Below, one piece after another: positions 8,791 through 14,449 of a stretch of DNA of 64,000 bases. Source of the DNA: Chelativorans sp. AA-79 (GTDB taxonomy: Bacteria > Pseudomonadota > Alphaproteobacteria > Rhizobiales > Rhizobiaceae); assembly GCF_029457495.1 (NCBI RefSeq), contig NZ_CP120361.1, positions 2,062,001-2,126,000 of the forward strand, written 5' to 3'. Positions within the stretch are counted from its first letter, which is position 1, and each line of letters starts with the position of its first letter. Position numbers and translations under genes: made by a program. Below the pieces are notes generated by a model, which had not been told where the DNA came from, ran no database searches, and saw nothing but the letters and a program-made list of their open reading frames with translations.

Positions 8791-9207
8791 CTATTTCCCG
8801 ACGATGGCCCATTCGAAACCGAAGGGATCGCGCAGCGCGCCGAAACGATCACCCCAGAACATCTTCTCGAGCGGCGTGACGATCTCCATGCCCTCGGCCT
8901 TGGAGGCGCGGTCCCACCAGAAGTCGACATCGTCCACGCACAGCGTGAGGGTGACGCCGGCAGGCTTGTTGAAGGCATGGCCGTATTCGGGATAGGGATC
9001 GCTCATCATCAGCGAGCCGCCGTTGATGTAGAGGTGCAGATGCATGGTGCGGCCCTGCTCGTCGACCGGGTGGCGGGCGACTTCCTTGGCGCCGAAGGCC
9101 TTTTCGTAATAAGCGGCGGCCTTGGTGGTGCCCTGGATCTGAAGATAGGCGATGACGCCGCCGCGCGGTTCGCCCGTTTCCCCGGGAGCAAGCTGGATCG
9201 CTGACAT
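8791..9207 (-). CDS. VOC-fold protein, PhnB/YdeI-like (last gene of the ECF42 array)
   Basis: 138 residues of the PhnB-like VOC group: A-Y-L-Q-I-Q-G near residue 20, A-A-A-Y-Y-E-K-A-F-G-A, L-M-M-S-D and the terminal D-P-F-G-F-E-W-A-I. The function of this group is unknown. The start ATG 9207 follows an AAGGAGAAGG ribosome binding site; the frame upstream is not family-like. It has its own ECF42-type promoter (9257-9285) and an intrinsic terminator downstream. PhnB-like VOC proteins are familiar neighbours of ECF42/DGPF genes. Confidence 0.9.
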   Translation of the reverse strand: MSAIQLAPGETGEPRGGVIAYLQIQGTTKAAAYYEKAFGAKEVARHPVDEQGRTMHLHLYINGGSLMMSDPYPEYGHAFNKPAGVTLTLCVDDVDFWWDRASKAEGMEIVTPLEKMFWGDRFGALRDPFGFEWAIVGK

Positions 9208-9256
9208 TTTCCTTCTCCTTTGGTTTTTCAGAAGCCCTCTCGCCGGGCTCGACCAA

Positions 9257-9285
9257 AGGACGGGCGGGCCGTGGCTAAACCGACA
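9257..9285 (-). promoter_or_regulatory. ECF42-type promoter of the VOC gene
   Basis: Read on the minus strand: TGTCGG (9280-9285), 17 bases, CGTCCT (9257-9262). The spacing and both hexamers match the other promoters of the array. It lies 49 bases before the ATG. Confidence 0.85.
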
Positions 9286-9344
9286 GGAGCGGTAAATTTT
9301 GTGGGCGGCCGCGCTCGGGGGGGAAGGAAGCGCGGCCGCCAGCC

Positions 9345-10907
9345 TCATTCCGCGGGGGCCGGAACGGGCTTTTCCGTGCGGTCCTCGGTGTCGGGCGTGC
9401 CGGAGCCGCGGAAGATCCCGAGGATCAGGACCGCCGTGAGAAAGGCGATCAGGGCGCTGGCCAGCGAGGTGAGCACCAGGCCGCCGGTGAAGGCATCGCG
9501 GGCGGTCGACAAGAATGTTCCGCCAAGGGTGGCGGGCAGTTCCGTGGCCACCGCAAGCGCGCCGCCCAGCGTATCGCGCGCCGCCTCGGCCATGGGAGCG
9601 GGAACGCCGGTGAGTGCATCGGCTTCCATGGTGCGGCGGTAGAGCGCGGTGACGACGCTCCCCAGGACGGCCACGCCCAGCGCGCCGCCGAGCTCAGCGC
9701 CCGTCTCGGACATGGCGGCGGCCGCGCCCGCCTTTTCCGGCGGGACGGAGCCGACGATGAGGTCGGTGGTGAGCGTGAAGACCGGGGCCAGCCCGAGAGA
9801 GAAAAGAGTGAAGGTGAAAGCCATCGCCGCCACGCTTTCGGCCTGGGCCGACCAGCTCTGGGCGACGAAGCCCATGGCCGCGACCAGGAGGCCGCCGGCC
9901 ATGATCACCGGCGGACGGGCGCGGGTCGTCATCTTCTGCGTCAGCATGGAGCCGACGATGAAGGCGAGGCTGGAGGGAAGCGAGACCAGTCCGGCCTGAA
10001 ACGGGGTCAAGCCGAGGACGAGCTGCAGATACTGCGCCACGAAGAAGAAGGAGCCGAAGGCGACGAAGACCGTGAGCAGATTGGTGGCGAGGGCGGCGCT
10101 GAAGGCGGCGCGGCGGAAGAGACGGACATCGATCAAGGGATCGTCGAGCTTCTTCTGGCGGCGGAAGAAGACCGTGCCGATGACGAAACCCGCGAGGATG
10201 AACAGGAAGGGTTCGACGCCCACACCATGCTCCGCCAGCCCTTTGATGCCGTAGATGACGGCGAGCACGGCGGCCAGCGAGAGGGCGGCACTCGGGATAT
10301 CGAGCCGGCCCGCTTCCGGGTCGCGGAACTCGGGCAGGAGGAAGGGGGCGACGGCCAGGAGCAGGATCATCACCGGCACGGCGATGAGGAAGACCGAGCC
10401 CCACCAGAAATAGGCGAGCAGCACGCCGCCGACGACCGGACCGATCGCGCCGCCGGCGGAGAAGGCGGAGATCCAGACCCCGATCGCGAAGGTCCGCTCG
10501 GCGGGATCATGGAACATGTTCCTGAGCAGCGAGAGCGTAGAGGGCGCGAGCGTGGCCGCCGAGACGCCCAGCACGGCGCGCGCGAGGATCAGCATCTCGG
10601 CCGTGGTGGCGAAGGCCGCGAAGACGGAGGCGAGGCCGAAAAGCGTGGCTCCGATCAGGAGCAGCTTGCGGCGGCCGATGCGATCGCCGAGCGTGCCCAT
10701 CGTGATGAGGGAGCCCGCAACCAGGAAGCCGTAGATATCGACGATCCAAAGGAGTTGCGAACTGGTGGGCTTCAGATCGGCGCTCAAGGCGGGCACCGCC
10801 AGATTGAGCACCGTCATGTCCATGGAATAGAGCAGGCAGGGGAGCGCAAGAACGGCAAGGCCGATCCATTCGCGTCGTCCGGCACGGGGCGGCGTTTCAG
10901 GAGCCAT
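9345..10907 (-). CDS. MFS drug:H+ antiporter, DHA2 (14-helix) family
   Basis: 520-residue inner-membrane exporter. The length and about 14 hydrophobic segments fit the DHA2/EmrB-QacA class. Early motifs are L-D/M-D-M-T-V-L-N-L-A-V-P in helix 1, W-I-V-D-I-Y in helix 2, the loop 2-3 motif G-T-L-G-D-R-I-G-R-R-K, and the antiporter motif region G-G-A-I-G-P-V-V-G-G in helix 5. A close match could be SmvA-like cationic biocide pumps, but the substrate is not proven. It lies in the ECF42 array, yet its 155-base upstream gap has no TGTCGG-N17-CGTC site, so it is probably read through from the DUF899 gene or has another promoter. Confidence 0.92.
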   Translation of the reverse strand: MAPETPPRAGRREWIGLAVLALPCLLYSMDMTVLNLAVPALSADLKPTSSQLLWIVDIYGFLVAGSLITMGTLGDRIGRRKLLLIGATLFGLASVFAAFATTAEMLILARAVLGVSAATLAPSTLSLLRNMFHDPAERTFAIGVWISAFSAGGAIGPVVGGVLLAYFWWGSVFLIAVPVMILLLAVAPFLLPEFRDPEAGRLDIPSAALSLAAVLAVIYGIKGLAEHGVGVEPFLFILAGFVIGTVFFRRQKKLDDPLIDVRLFRRAAFSAALATNLLTVFVAFGSFFFVAQYLQLVLGLTPFQAGLVSLPSSLAFIVGSMLTQKMTTRARPPVIMAGGLLVAAMGFVAQSWSAQAESVAAMAFTFTLFSLGLAPVFTLTTDLIVGSVPPEKAGAAAAMSETGAELGGALGVAVLGSVVTALYRRTMEADALTGVPAPMAEAARDTLGGALAVATELPATLGGTFLSTARDAFTGGLVLTSLASALIAFLTAVLILGIFRGSGTPDTEDRTEKPVPAPAE

Positions 10908-11062
10908 CGCAAAAATCCTCTACTCTCTGGCAGCCCTGCGAGGGCGCCGGTCGGATCGTCGGTTCAGCGGAACGGCCGCCCGGAGACAAGAGGCAGGGAC
11001 GGCCTTTCCCAGACATTCGCACACGCTTCCTGCCAACCTCGTGTCAGGAGAGCGGAAGCCCG

Positions 11063-11758
11063 TCAGGCGGGGTATTCGTCGTGCCGGTGAATCCAGTCGA
11101 GCGGTGTCTTCTCGTTGCGGCCTACCGGCGTCATATCGAGATACATGAGCGCGCCCAGCACTTCCTCGCCGCCGCGGGCGAAGGTGGAATAGGTATGGAA
11201 GACCGTGCCGTCCGCATCCCTGTAGAAGACGCTGAGACCCGGCAGGTCCGAAATGCCGGGATCGATGACCTCGTAGTTGTAGACGGCCTCGCCCTTCTCC
11301 AACTGCTCCCTGGTGAAGGAGACGTTGAAGTCGTAGTTGAAATCCGTCCTGCCCGAGGAGACCCAGGGGAAGGCCCAGCCCATACGCTTGCGATAGGCCT
11401 CGATCTTGTCGATGGGCGCGCGGGAGATGGCAACGTAGGTCACATCCTTGTGCAGGAAATGTTGGCGCGCGCCGTCGACGTGGTCCGCCTCGAAAGAGCA
11501 GCCGGCGCAGCCCGCCTCCCATTCGGGCGGGAACATGAAATGCTGGACAATGAGCTGGCTGCGGCCTTCGAACAGCTCGGCGAGGGTTCTTTCGCCGTCC
11601 GGCGCATCGAAAACGTAGTTCTTCTCGATTTTCACCCAGGGGAGGGCGCGACGCGCCTCCCCGATTTCGTCACGCAGCCGGGAGGCCTGTTTCTCCTTGG
11701 CGAGAAGCGTCTTGCGGGCCTCGATCCATTCTGCGCGCGATACGGTCCGGTGCTGCAT
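11063..11758 (-). CDS. DUF899 (thioredoxin-like) protein
   Basis: 231 residues of the DUF899 family, a thioredoxin-like fold often found beside ECF42/DGPF genes. The core reads Q-H-F-M-F-P-P-E-W-E-A-G-C-A-G-C-S-F, with a C-x-x-C pair near residue 90, then H-L-H-K-D-V-T-Y-V-A-I-S-R-A-P and a C-terminal H-R-H-D-E-Y. The biochemical role is unknown; a redox role is an inference from the fold and cysteines. The start was chosen at ATG 11758 after a GAGGAGAAGG ribosome binding site. Its own ECF42-type promoter is at 11802-11830. Confidence 0.9.
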   Translation of the reverse strand: MQHRTVSRAEWIEARKTLLAKEKQASRLRDEIGEARRALPWVKIEKNYVFDAPDGERTLAELFEGRSQLIVQHFMFPPEWEAGCAGCSFEADHVDGARQHFLHKDVTYVAISRAPIDKIEAYRKRMGWAFPWVSSGRTDFNYDFNVSFTREQLEKGEAVYNYEVIDPGISDLPGLSVFYRDADGTVFHTYSTFARGGEEVLGALMYLDMTPVGRNEKTPLDWIHRHDEYPA

Positions 11759-11801
11759 TTTCCTTCTCCTCTCGTTGATACGATCGCTGGCGATCCCCCG
11801 G

Positions 11802-11830
11802 AGGACGGATGCGGGAACGGCTTTCCGACA
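11802..11830 (-). promoter_or_regulatory. ECF42-type promoter of the DUF899 gene
   Basis: Minus strand: TGTCGG (11825-11830), 17 bases, CGTCCT (11802-11807), 43 bases before the ATG. Confidence 0.87.
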
Positions 11831-11858
11831 TTTTGTCCGGGAGAAGCTCAGTGCCTTT

Positions 11859-12224
11859 TCAAAGGAGCTCTTCGGCCAGATCGTCGATGGCGCGGACCTC
11901 CACCGTGCTGCCGGAAGCGAGCATCGGCAGGCGGGAGGCGAGCGACAGCGCTTCCTCCCGGTCCTTCGCCTGAACGAGGAAGAAGCCGAGCAACTGTTCC
12001 TTGGTTTCCGCGAACGGGCCGTCGGTGCTGACCACCTTGCCACCCTGCGAGCGCAGGACGGTGGCCTGCGAGGCCCATTCGAGCCCGTGGGAGGCGACGA
12101 AATGGCCGTGCTGCTTCAGGAACTCGTCATATTCCATTCCCTCGCGGACGCATTGCAGCGCATCCTCCATGGGGCGGGCCTTCATCTCCACCTCGTCGGC
12201 GTGGATCAGAAACAGAAACCGCAT
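11859..12224 (-). CDS. DGPF/YCII-domain protein, third copy
   Basis: 121 residues, YCII-related fold. The signature T-D-G-P-F-A-E-T-K-E-Q-L-L-G-F is near residue 67, with M-R-F-L-F-L-I-H-A-D-E at the start. DGPF proteins are the defining neighbours of ECF42 sigma factors. Their activity is unknown, although the fold has a possible His/Asp active site. ATG 12224 follows AAGGAGG; any longer frame overlaps the neighbouring gene and promoter. Its own ECF42-type promoter is at 12260-12288. Confidence 0.92.
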   Translation of the reverse strand: MRFLFLIHADEVEMKARPMEDALQCVREGMEYDEFLKQHGHFVASHGLEWASQATVLRSQGGKVVSTDGPFAETKEQLLGFFLVQAKDREEALSLASRLPMLASGSTVEVRAIDDLAEELL

Positions 12225-12259
12225 CGGATTTTTCCTCCTTGCTCGGATCCGGCGCCCCG

Positions 12260-12288
12260 AGGACGAACGCCAAAGCCGCGATCCGACA
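12260..12288 (-). promoter_or_regulatory. ECF42-type promoter of the third DGPF gene
   Basis: Minus strand: TGTCGG (12283-12288), 17 bases, CGTCCT (12260-12265), 35 bases before the ATG, in the 76-base gap after the second DGPF gene. Confidence 0.87.
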
Positions 12289-12300
12289 AAAACGAGATCG

Positions 12301-12657
12301 TCAGTGGTCGCCGGGTTTTCCCGCGGCCCGAACTTCGATGCGGCCATAGGCGCCGGGTGGTACCCTGGAGGCGAGCGCGATGGCCTCCTCCCGATCCCGC
12401 GCCTCGACCAAAAGGAAGCCCAGCAACTGCTCCTTGGACTCGGAAAAAGGCCCGTCCGTCGTGACTGTCTTTCCGCTGCGCGTGACGACATTGGTGGCGA
12501 GGGAGGGCGATTCCAATGCATGGGCGACAATCAGATGTCCCTGCCGTTCGAGCAGGTCGTCATAGTCGATGGAGTCCTGAACGAGCCGATCGAAATCCTC
12601 CTTGGGCAATGCCCGCAGCGCGGCTTCATCGGCATAGACCAGGCATATATAGCGCAT
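12301..12657 (-). CDS. DGPF/YCII-domain protein, second copy
   Basis: 118 residues. Starts M-R-Y-I-C-L-V-Y-A-D-E and carries T-D-G-P-F-S-E-S-K-E-Q-L-L-G-F near residue 71, then V-E-A-R-D-R-E-E-A. It is clearly paralogous to its two neighbours but diverged outside the signature. It sits 91 bases downstream of the sigma factor stop and has its own ECF42-type promoter at 12692-12720. Confidence 0.92.
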   Translation of the reverse strand: MRYICLVYADEAALRALPKEDFDRLVQDSIDYDDLLERQGHLIVAHALESPSLATNVVTRSGKTVTTDGPFSESKEQLLGFLLVEARDREEAIALASRVPPGAYGRIEVRAAGKPGDH

Positions 12658-12691
12658 ATTCGCCTCCCTTCTCCTGGAACGATACGCCCCA

Positions 12692-12720
12692 AGGACGCCG
12701 GTCCATGGGCCCCGCCGACA
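12692..12720 (-). promoter_or_regulatory. ECF42-type promoter of the second DGPF gene
   Basis: Minus strand: TGTCGG (12715-12720), 17 bases, CGTCCT (12692-12697), 34 bases before the ATG. Confidence 0.87.
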
Positions 12721-12748
12721 TTTTTCCCGATCCGGACGAGGAAAAATC

Positions 12749-14014
12749 TCAGGCGGATTTCGCCTTCGCCTTCCCCTCCGCGATCAGGCGGTCGATGTGC
12801 TGGCGGATGTGGGCGGCCTCCGCGGGGGTGCGTGCGAGGGAGATCGCCTTGTCGAAGGCGATGTGGGCCTCCCGGTCGCGGCCGAGCTCCATCAGAAGGG
12901 CGCCGCGCACGCCGTGGAAATAGAAATAGCCCGACAGCCGGTCCTTCAGCGGATCGACAAGCAGGAGGGCGGCTTCGGCTCCCTGCAGCTTGAAGACGGC
13001 GACGGCGCGGTTCAGCCGGACGATGGGGGAGGGCTGGAGGCGCTCCAGCATCTGGTAGAGAAGGTTGATCTCCTGCCAATCCGTGTCCTCCGGCTTCGCC
13101 GCGCGTGCGTGAAGCGCGGCGATCGCGGCCTGGACCTGATACGGGCCGGGCTTGCGGTGGCGCATCGCCTTGTCGACGAGCGCCAGGCCTTCCGTGATCT
13201 TGTCGCGGTTCCAGAGACCGCGGTCCTGGTCTTCGAGGAGAACGATATTGCCCTCGGCATCGAGACGGGCTGCCGTGCGGGCGTGCTGGAGGAGCATGAG
13301 GGCCAACAGACCCATGATCTCGGGCTCCGCCGGGAAGAGACGGAGGAGCAGGCGCGCGAGCCTGATCGCCTCCTCACAGAGCGGCTCGCGAACATGCACT
13401 TCGCCCCCGCTTGCCGAATAGCCCTCGTTGAAGATCAGGTAGATCATGGCCGCCACCGCCGCCAGCCGCTCCGCACGATCGACCGCGTCGGGTGCCGCGA
13501 AGGGCACGTCAGCCTCCGACACGCGGCGCTTGGCGCGGGTGATGCGCTGCTCCATCGCCTTTTCGTTGACGAGGAAGGCGTTGGCGATCTCGCGTACGGA
13601 AAGGCCAGAGACGATGCGCAGGGCGAGCGCCACCTGCTGGGTGGCGGGCAGGTCCGGATGGCAGCAGATGAACATCAACCGCAGGATGTCGTCACGGTAA
13701 TGGGAATCGTCGAGCCTTTCGGCCATGTCCGCCTCGGCATCGCCGAGGTCGGAGATGAGCTCATCGGGGGGAAGCGCGGTGTTGCGGCTGTCGCGGCGCA
13801 CGCTGTCCAGCGCCGCATTGCGGCCGACGAAGATGAGCCAGGCGGCGGGGTCGCGCGGCGGCCCCTTCACCGGCCAGGTCTTCATGGCGCGCAGGCAGGC
13901 TTCCTGAAAGGCTTCCTCGGCCCGGTCGAGATCGCGGAAATAGCGCAGGAGCGCGCCCATCGCCTGCGGGCGGGCGCCCGTCAATGCGGTCTCTATCCAG
14001 GCTAGGTCGGTCAT
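12749..14014 (-). CDS. ECF42-group RNA polymerase sigma factor with TPR-like C-terminus
   Basis: 421 residues, much longer than ordinary ECF sigma factors. Sigma region 2 covers about residues 10-80 (F-R-D-L-D-R-A-E-E-A-F-Q-E-A). Region 4 covers about 105-170 (L-R-I-V-S-G-L-S-V-R-E-I-A-N-A-F and R-I-T-R-A-K-R-R). The C-terminal extension carries the group's conserved D-T-D-W-x-x-I-N-L-L-Y and S-P-I-V-R-L-N-R-A-V-A. This architecture plus flanking DGPF genes defines ECF42, which works without a classical anti-sigma factor. It overlaps the upstream DGPF gene by 4 bases (ATGA), so it is translationally coupled to it and controlled by that gene's ECF42-type promoter, a positive feedback loop. Confidence 0.95.
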   Translation of the reverse strand: MTDLAWIETALTGARPQAMGALLRYFRDLDRAEEAFQEACLRAMKTWPVKGPPRDPAAWLIFVGRNAALDSVRRDSRNTALPPDELISDLGDAEADMAERLDDSHYRDDILRLMFICCHPDLPATQQVALALRIVSGLSVREIANAFLVNEKAMEQRITRAKRRVSEADVPFAAPDAVDRAERLAAVAAMIYLIFNEGYSASGGEVHVREPLCEEAIRLARLLLRLFPAEPEIMGLLALMLLQHARTAARLDAEGNIVLLEDQDRGLWNRDKITEGLALVDKAMRHRKPGPYQVQAAIAALHARAAKPEDTDWQEINLLYQMLERLQPSPIVRLNRAVAVFKLQGAEAALLLVDPLKDRLSGYFYFHGVRGALLMELGRDREAHIAFDKAISLARTPAEAAHIRQHIDRLIAEGKAKAKSA

Positions 14015-14397
14015 GATGCTACTTTCACCTCCTCGGGGAGCACGCCTTTTTCAAAGATCTGGACGGGGCGGATCTCGAAGGTGCAGCTTTCGCCCTCCTT
14101 CATGCGCTTGGCGAAGTCGACCACCTCGTCCAGATTCTCGCAGTCGACGAGATAGAAGCCCAGCAACTGCTCCTTGGTCTCGGCGAAGGGACCGTCGAGC
14201 ACCAGCTGCTCGTTGCCGGAGGCGCGCAGCGTGGTGGCGCCTGTCGTGGGCACGAGCCGAATGGCGGGGCCCATCTTGCCGCGCTCGATGAATTCCTTCT
14301 GGACGCGCTTGCGCTTGGCGAGGACGGCTTCGTCCTCGGCCTTGCTCCAGGACATCACCACATCCTCGTCGTGGTAGCAGAGAATGGCATAAAGCAT
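14011..14397 (-). CDS. DGPF/YCII-domain protein, first copy (leads the sigma operon)
   Basis: 128 residues. Begins M-L-Y-A-I-L-C-Y-H-D-E-D, with L-D-G-P-F-A-E-T-K-E-Q-L-L-G-F near residue 68. It is the first gene of the array and is coupled to the sigma factor by a 4-base overlap. The ECF42-type promoter lies 23 bases upstream of the ATG. It may sense or process the signal to which the sigma factor responds, but that is inference from context. Confidence 0.93.
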   Translation of the reverse strand: MLYAILCYHDEDVVMSWSKAEDEAVLAKRKRVQKEFIERGKMGPAIRLVPTTGATTLRASGNEQLVLDGPFAETKEQLLGFYLVDCENLDEVVDFAKRMKEGESCTFEIRPVQIFEKGVLPEEVKVAS

Positions 14398-14420
14398 GCG
14401 GGTTCACCTCGTTCGGTTGG

Positions 14421-14449
14421 AAGACGGCCGAGCATGCCTCAATCCGACA
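14421..14449 (-). promoter_or_regulatory. ECF42-type promoter of the first DGPF gene and the sigma factor
   Basis: Minus strand: TGTCGG (14444-14449), 17 bases, CGTCTT (14421-14426). It differs from the other four by one base in the -10 element. It lies 23 bases before the ATG and implies autoregulation. Confidence 0.85.

Follow-up and report, generated by a model that had tools for sequence, protein, structure and literature searches.

The locus lies in a 64,000-nucleotide stretch of DNA from Chelativorans sp. AA-79, and "the window" denotes that whole stretch. On the minus strand the gene order is YCII_A, ECF42 sigma factor, YCII_B, YCII_C, DUF899, MFS exporter and VOC. The genes, and the predicted promoters located ahead of them by pattern search, are as follows.

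14421..14449, minus strand: predicted ECF42-type promoter of the YCII_A-sigma operon (TGTCGG, N17, CGTCTT)
14431..14436, minus strand: CATGCT in the spacer of the sigma-operon promoter (positions 8-13), a CATNNT hexamer of putative function
14011..14397, minus strand: YCII_A, YCII-domain protein, first gene of the sigma operon (PF03795, 6.5e-18; DGPF at residue 68)
12749..14014, minus strand: ECF42-type sigma factor, 421 aa, with profile matches to Sigma70_r2, Sigma70_r4_2, DUF6596 and, weakly, TPR
12692..12720, minus strand: predicted ECF42-type promoter of YCII_B
12301..12657, minus strand: YCII_B, YCII-domain protein (PF03795, 3.5e-20; DGPF at residue 68)
12260..12288, minus strand: predicted ECF42-type promoter of YCII_C
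11859..12224, minus strand: YCII_C, YCII-domain protein (PF03795, 1.1e-17; DGPF at residue 68)
11802..11830, minus strand: predicted ECF42-type promoter of the DUF899 gene and probably of the MFS gene too
11063..11758, minus strand: DUF899 protein (PF05988, 3.9e-93)
9345..10907, minus strand: MFS exporter (PF07690, 1e-46; NCBIfam at best 548.8 bits, under the cut-off of 1075)
9257..9285, minus strand: predicted ECF42-type promoter of the VOC gene; 13 of the 18 genus loci, counting the window, have such a site ahead of a VOC homologue
8791..9207, minus strand: VOC protein of the glyoxalase/bleomycin-resistance fold (PF00903, 7e-15)

The sigma factor carries the Sigma70_r2 (1.5e-11) and Sigma70_r4_2 (4.8e-9) domains and a C-terminal extension matching DUF6596 (PF20239, 5.4e-37, residues 183-284 of 421), and it is the only DUF6596 match in the genome. 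Its TPR_2 match (22.7 bits) falls under the cut-off of 27, and a profile built from 12 relatives matches TPR structures, mostly over residues ~314-420 and several at E < 0.001. The assignment to the ECF42 type, proposed from the sequence alone, is thus supported by the sigma2 and sigma4 domains, the DUF6596 extension, the TGTCGR promoters with their CG(A/T)C -10 and the three YCII genes beside the sigma gene, each with a DGPF motif. No anti-sigma family appears among the matches listed for the eight neighbours scanned, a scan that ended before the genes from 14536 on; a diverged anti-sigma factor may be present. According to the accessible part of PMC8999054, the C-terminal extension of ECF42 factors is essential for activity, and the YCII protein may take part in regulation.

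The five TGTCGG-N17-CGTC(C/T)T sites are present where the sequence-only reading had placed them; they are the only five matches in the window and all lie on the minus strand. Between the site and the start codon lie 23 bases for YCII_A, 34 for YCII_B, 35 for YCII_C, 43 for DUF899 and 49 for VOC, again in agreement with that reading. The chance expectation of TGTCGG-N17-CGTCYT in the window is a mean of 0.02 with a maximum of 1 (100 shuffles). A chance origin of the repeated motif is ruled out by these shuffles together with its recurrence ahead of homologous genes in sister genomes. The proposal that each protein has a promoter of its own holds in that the regulon is divided over separate promoters, but YCII_A and the sigma gene, whose frames overlap by 4 bases, share the first site, and a relaxed scan gave no separate ECF42 site for the MFS gene, which is probably read through from DUF899. 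An A run often stands directly 5' of TGTCGG in the promoters of YCII_B, YCII_C and DUF899 and of their genus homologues, and in the sigma-operon promoter an A/T run lies farther upstream of TGTCGG than the A run of these target promoters.

The sites are most likely promoters read by the ECF42 sigma factor of the window, since enrichment of the motif tracks the sigma family, as described below, and the same element has been mapped for RpoE10, the ECF42 factor of Sinorhizobium meliloti. In the accessible part of PMC6180224, the RpoE10 promoters with mapped starts are those of SMc01149 (TGTCGG-N17-CGTCCT) and SMb20475 (TGTCGG-N17-CGTCAT), both starts falling 7 bases past the -10 hexamer as read from Table 1. 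The promoter type is therefore a known one.

The genome-wide search that the sequence-only reading had called for returned 17 exact TGTCGG-N17-CGTCYT sites in 5.76 Mb (three contigs). As 12 of them lie outside the window, the finding of five sites ended too early. Other spacings are rarer (5 sites with N16, 10 with N18), and the reversed pattern gives 4 sites over N16-18 together. The 12 further sites, by genome position, are the following.

8415: N17 site ahead of a GyrI-like gene
28146: N17 site ahead of an interrupted RibD_C-like frame followed by a 3-dmu-9_3-mt (PhnB-like VOC) gene
153127: N17 site ahead of a DUF1428 gene
594094: N17 site ahead of a DoxX gene
2040780: N17 site ahead of a DrrA-like ABC ATPase gene
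2260722: N17 site ahead of a GST gene
2945842: N17 site ahead of an MFS gene
3124688: N17 site ahead of an AHSA1 gene
3817733: N17 site ahead of a gene for a 57-aa secreted-like protein
C3:77586: N17 site ahead of a second DUF899 gene
4511903: doubtful site, preceding a start far upstream of the conserved domain
C3:122849: doubtful site within long frames, with no good start close by

Recurrence of these sites was followed in three sister genomes (G002, G008 and G012), from which all 40 off-locus sites were taken. Nine of the 12 recur ahead of a homologous gene in at least one of the three: those of DUF1428, AHSA1 and the 57-aa protein in all three, those of DoxX, ABC and MFS in G002 and G008, those of the second DUF899 and GST in G008, and the site at C1:28146 ahead of the RibD_C-like gene in G002 and of its following VOC gene in G008. 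The sites of the GyrI-like gene, the CoA-transferase gene and C3:122849 do not recur in G002, G008 or G012. Target domains in the sister genomes further include ABM, GFA, RibD_C, 3-dmu-9_3-mt, VOC, alpha/beta-hydrolase and YCII. For five of the 40 sister sites, no frame of at least 80 aa begins 8 to 159 bases downstream, and the starts behind several others are doubtful; those judged doubtful are L205, L209, L211, L212, L225, L239, L244 and L227 (GAPDH). Over 16 genus genomes there are 178 motif sites against 17 reversed controls. The RibD_C-like frame at C1:28146 (L018) stops after 67 residues; it was not found open in G008 (L213) and is open in G002 (L229), and the VOC gene after it is 95% identical between the present genome and G008.

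Two sites of unequal spacing also belong to this comparison. The N16 site at C1:3622782 (L032) stands ahead of a 102-aa frame, 463 bases upstream of a YCII gene (3623273); in two sister genomes, loci L214 and L240 encode proteins 68% identical to this frame behind N17 sites and likewise continue with a YCII gene, and the YCII gene at 3623273 is thus probably a regulon member one gene later, behind a spacer one base short. The N18 site at C1:4016264 (L040) precedes an alpha/beta-hydrolase gene whose homologue in a sister genome (L238) has an N17 counterpart. As both have N17 counterparts in sister genomes, the figure of 17 can be taken neither as a maximum nor as a minimum. Control by ECF42 of the three YCII genes above the Pfam cut-off other than those of the window was considered and rejected, no motif lying within 400 bases upstream of each, with the qualification just given for the gene at 3623273; this check took in the genes above the cut-off, a seventh YCII match falling below it.

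Among 121 genomes of the family, 63 have DUF6596 above the cut-off and 58 do not, the latter including G133, whose DUF6596 match is below the cut-off. The sigma-bearing genomes hold 374 sites in 309.7 Mb (1.21 per Mb; reversed pattern 0.34 per Mb), as compared to 71 sites in 229 Mb (0.31 per Mb; reversed 0.28 per Mb) in those scored without the family. The difference in motif density is evident from the Mann-Whitney test (p=1.6e-9, which ignores relatedness; reversed control p=0.11) and from the number of genomes with at least five sites, 37 of 63 against 1 of 58. Five sigma-bearing genomes (G023, G049, G102, G117 and G124) have no exact site, and G058 (76% complete), scored as without the sigma factor, has 6. 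Over 58 ECF42 loci (all 64 kb of the window, up to 20 kb of each of the others), TGTCGR-N17-CGTC occurs 91 times, as compared to 21 for N16, 32 for N18 and 4 for reversed N17. In the genus, the neighbourhoods of 18 of 19 matches were examined, the partial match G003:C3 being left out, and 40 of the 97 matches outside the genus were taken, picked mainly by score and contig size. In two loci (L126, L139), TGTCGG-N17-CGTCCT lies 69 and 95 bases before an in-frame sigma start, and no YCII gene was recognised between.

The ECF42 factors of Streptomyces venezuelae (Liu 2018, Wu 2019) reportedly use a promoter with TGTCGA and CG(A/T)C, and a Streptomyces locus in the present set (L313) has TGTCGA-N17-CGTC, as against TGTCGG here. 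The sequence-only reading had called the match to this Streptomyces element close; the nearest known element is the alphaproteobacterial TGTCGG form, and TGTCGA belongs to a different part of the ECF42 tree. Among 138 ECF42 loci (the window, 57 others and 80 named loci kept from at least 588 relatives), the promoter before YCII or sigma genes is TGTCGG in 62, TGTCGA in 34, both in 2 and neither in 40, under a site rule that is looser for TGTCGA than for TGTCGG. In the tree, all 62 TGTCGG-type sigma factors fall in one clade (support 0.993) with none of the 34 TGTCGA-type inside. L245, from the same genome as G008/L100, is included in the promoter-type, tree and residue comparisons.

The split extends to the sigma4 recognition helix, which can be aligned with the helix of other ECF sigma factors. 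When the 40 loci with neither type and the 2 with both, out of 138, are left out, residue 155 is E in 62 of 62 TGTCGG-type factors and A (30), G (3) or S (1) in the 34 TGTCGA-type, and residue 159 is T in 62 of 62 and V in 33 of 34, respectively. The residues aligned with E155 and T159 presumably contact -35 bases in sigma-E. The TGTCGG set being one clade, the link with E155/T159 amounts to a single event, and many other alignment columns also separate the two types; the association with promoter type, read from aligned sequences, is a correlation only. One sigma factor, from a record titled Frankia sp. RB7 (L252), is 71% identical to that of the window and has a Bradyrhizobium-like promoter spacer; the label may be wrong.

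The sequence-only reading held that the first site drives the sigma factor itself in a positive feedback loop. This is plausible, at somewhat less than an even chance: 14421-14449 is a full match, and 15 of the 18 genus loci have TGTCGG-N17-CGTC ahead of the YCII_A gene, a site from which the sigma factor would drive its own operon as a self-amplifying switch. Such a loop is not established, given that overexpression of S. meliloti RpoE10 left SMc01151, the first gene of the same operon, unraised, and that the sigma-operon promoter differs systematically from the others; in the portion of PMC6180224 available, SMc01151-rpoE10 has a similar motif, which the mapped start of SMc01151 overlaps. 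The difference is evident from the -10 element in the genus, which is CGTCTT in 14 of 15 sigma-operon promoters as compared to 3 of 32 targets (Fisher 2.7e-8, relatedness ignored). The three genus loci lacking the YCII_A site are L103, a contig starting with the sigma gene, and L097 and L106, from two congeners, which hold a second, divergent ECF42 sigma factor and have no TGTCGR-N17-CGTC site in the stretch examined.

The systematic difference could also mean that the sigma-operon promoter is composite, with a nested housekeeping-type promoter (-10 at spacer positions 8-13, a -35-like element just upstream) providing basal expression and possibly competition between two holoenzymes. CATNNT occupies this fixed register in 29 of 59 sigma-operon promoters of all lineages and in none of 74 targets; with the genus set aside, the counts are 14 of 44 and 0 of 42. 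The sites counted were TGTCGG-N17-CGTC(C/T/A) matches that have a start no more than 130 bases away and a ribosome-binding-like sequence, L245 being left out. The match to TATAAT at spacer position 8 averages 2.50 of 6 in 42 thinned sigma-operon promoters, above the next best register (1.76), the maximum of 2000 shuffles (1.90) and the mean of 65 targets (0.98); the -35-like match gives a weaker signal (p=0.00095). Furthermore, as read from Table 1 of PMC6180224, SMc01151 starts at the last base of CGTC, 8 bases after the hexamer register. Against this stand the weak match in the present genome (CATGCT, 3 of 6) and the smaller contrast outside the genus and Bradyrhizobium, where at least three TATAAT matches occur in 16 of 36 sigma-operon promoters and 4 of 32 targets (p=0.007). 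At the hexamer register, the RpoE10-responsive target SMc01149 has CATCCT and SMc01151 itself TAGCGC (as read from PMC6180224), and therefore a nested promoter is proposed only tentatively.

It is unlikely that the spacer element serves as the operator of some other transcription factor that acts on the sigma operon only. The spacer of 17 bases is indeed more conserved in the sigma-operon promoter than in the VOC promoter of the same 13 loci (mean identity 0.70 against 0.42), and GCAT is invariant in all 15 genus sigma-operon promoters; across lineages, however, the hexamer drifts to CATA(A/G/C)T-like forms, behaviour that suits a -10 element rather than a fixed operator. That the sites are read by another ECF sigma factor with a CGTC -10, an element also found at promoters of other S. 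meliloti ECF sigma factors in the accessible part of PMC6180224, is highly improbable, as the 58 family genomes without the ECF42 family show no enrichment over the reversed control.

The window is best read as the core of an ECF42 regulon, consisting of the sigma factor and dispersed TGTCGG-N17-CGTC(C/T)T promoters for detox-like genes, with a probability of about 0.88. What the computation shows is the sites and where they lie, that they recur ahead of homologues in sister species, and that they co-occur with the sigma family. In the proposed mechanism, the active sigma factor would direct RNA polymerase, by direct recognition, to the five promoters of this locus and to some ten to twelve elsewhere in the genome, each serving one gene or a short operon. 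The predicted products are small ligand-binding or detox-like proteins (YCII, VOC, AHSA1, DUF899, DUF1428, RibD_C, GyrI-like, GST, DoxX) along with MFS and DrrA-like ABC exporters. The activity of the sigma factor may be controlled via its C-terminal extension and a YCII protein, and the regulon may act against toxic small molecules. A broader generalization appears rather doubtful, namely that alphaproteobacterial ECF42 factors would each serve ~15-20 dispersed single-gene or short-operon detox promoters, with a housekeeping element nested in the composite promoter of their own operon. The sigma factor would then be supplied constitutively, and its C-terminal extension and the YCII partner, not feedback, would do the switching.

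The apparent placement of many widespread uncharacterised families (DUF899, DUF1428, YCII, AHSA1, DoxX, RibD_C and small VOC) under one promoter suggests a common task, which could be tested directly by finding the activator of one ECF42 sigma factor. Specificity could readily be probed through the split between TGTCGG and TGTCGA and the sigma4 residues linked to it, and the unusual sigma-operon promoter opens ECF42 autoregulation to testing. The new elements are the genome-wide set of sites, the co-occurrence of motif and sigma factor, the TGTCGG clade apart from TGTCGA and the distinct sigma-operon promoter, for which no firm claim of first description is made. Within the openly accessible literature searched (titles and abstract openings, subscription papers lying outside the scope), no ECF42 regulon this large and no second element within an ECF42 factor's own promoter was found.

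As compared to known systems, the locus resembles most closely that of S. meliloti RpoE10, as described in the accessible part of PMC6180224, in which a YCII gene lies directly ahead of the sigma gene, the promoters are of the TGTCGG-N17 form, and the targets carry glyoxalase-like and hydrophobic-ligand-binding domains resembling those found here. Autoregulation was not seen for RpoE10 in that part of the source. Overexpression of RpoE10 raised six genes, four of them (two operons) at least 2-fold, whereas about 15-17 promoters are predicted genome-wide here, so that the present regulon looks larger than in the one close relative studied (PMC6180224). The neighbourhood of Pseudomonas putida ECF-10, also of the ECF42 group, is said to be similar to that of RpoE10, and antibiotic and stress phenotypes are described for it in the available portions of PMC8999054 and PMC6180224. 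With the Streptomyces venezuelae ECF42 factors, the sigma factor of the window shares a long C-terminal extension, which in those factors is TPR-rich and essential for activity, and a conserved YCII neighbour, which has been proposed as a partner (PMC8999054, accessible part).
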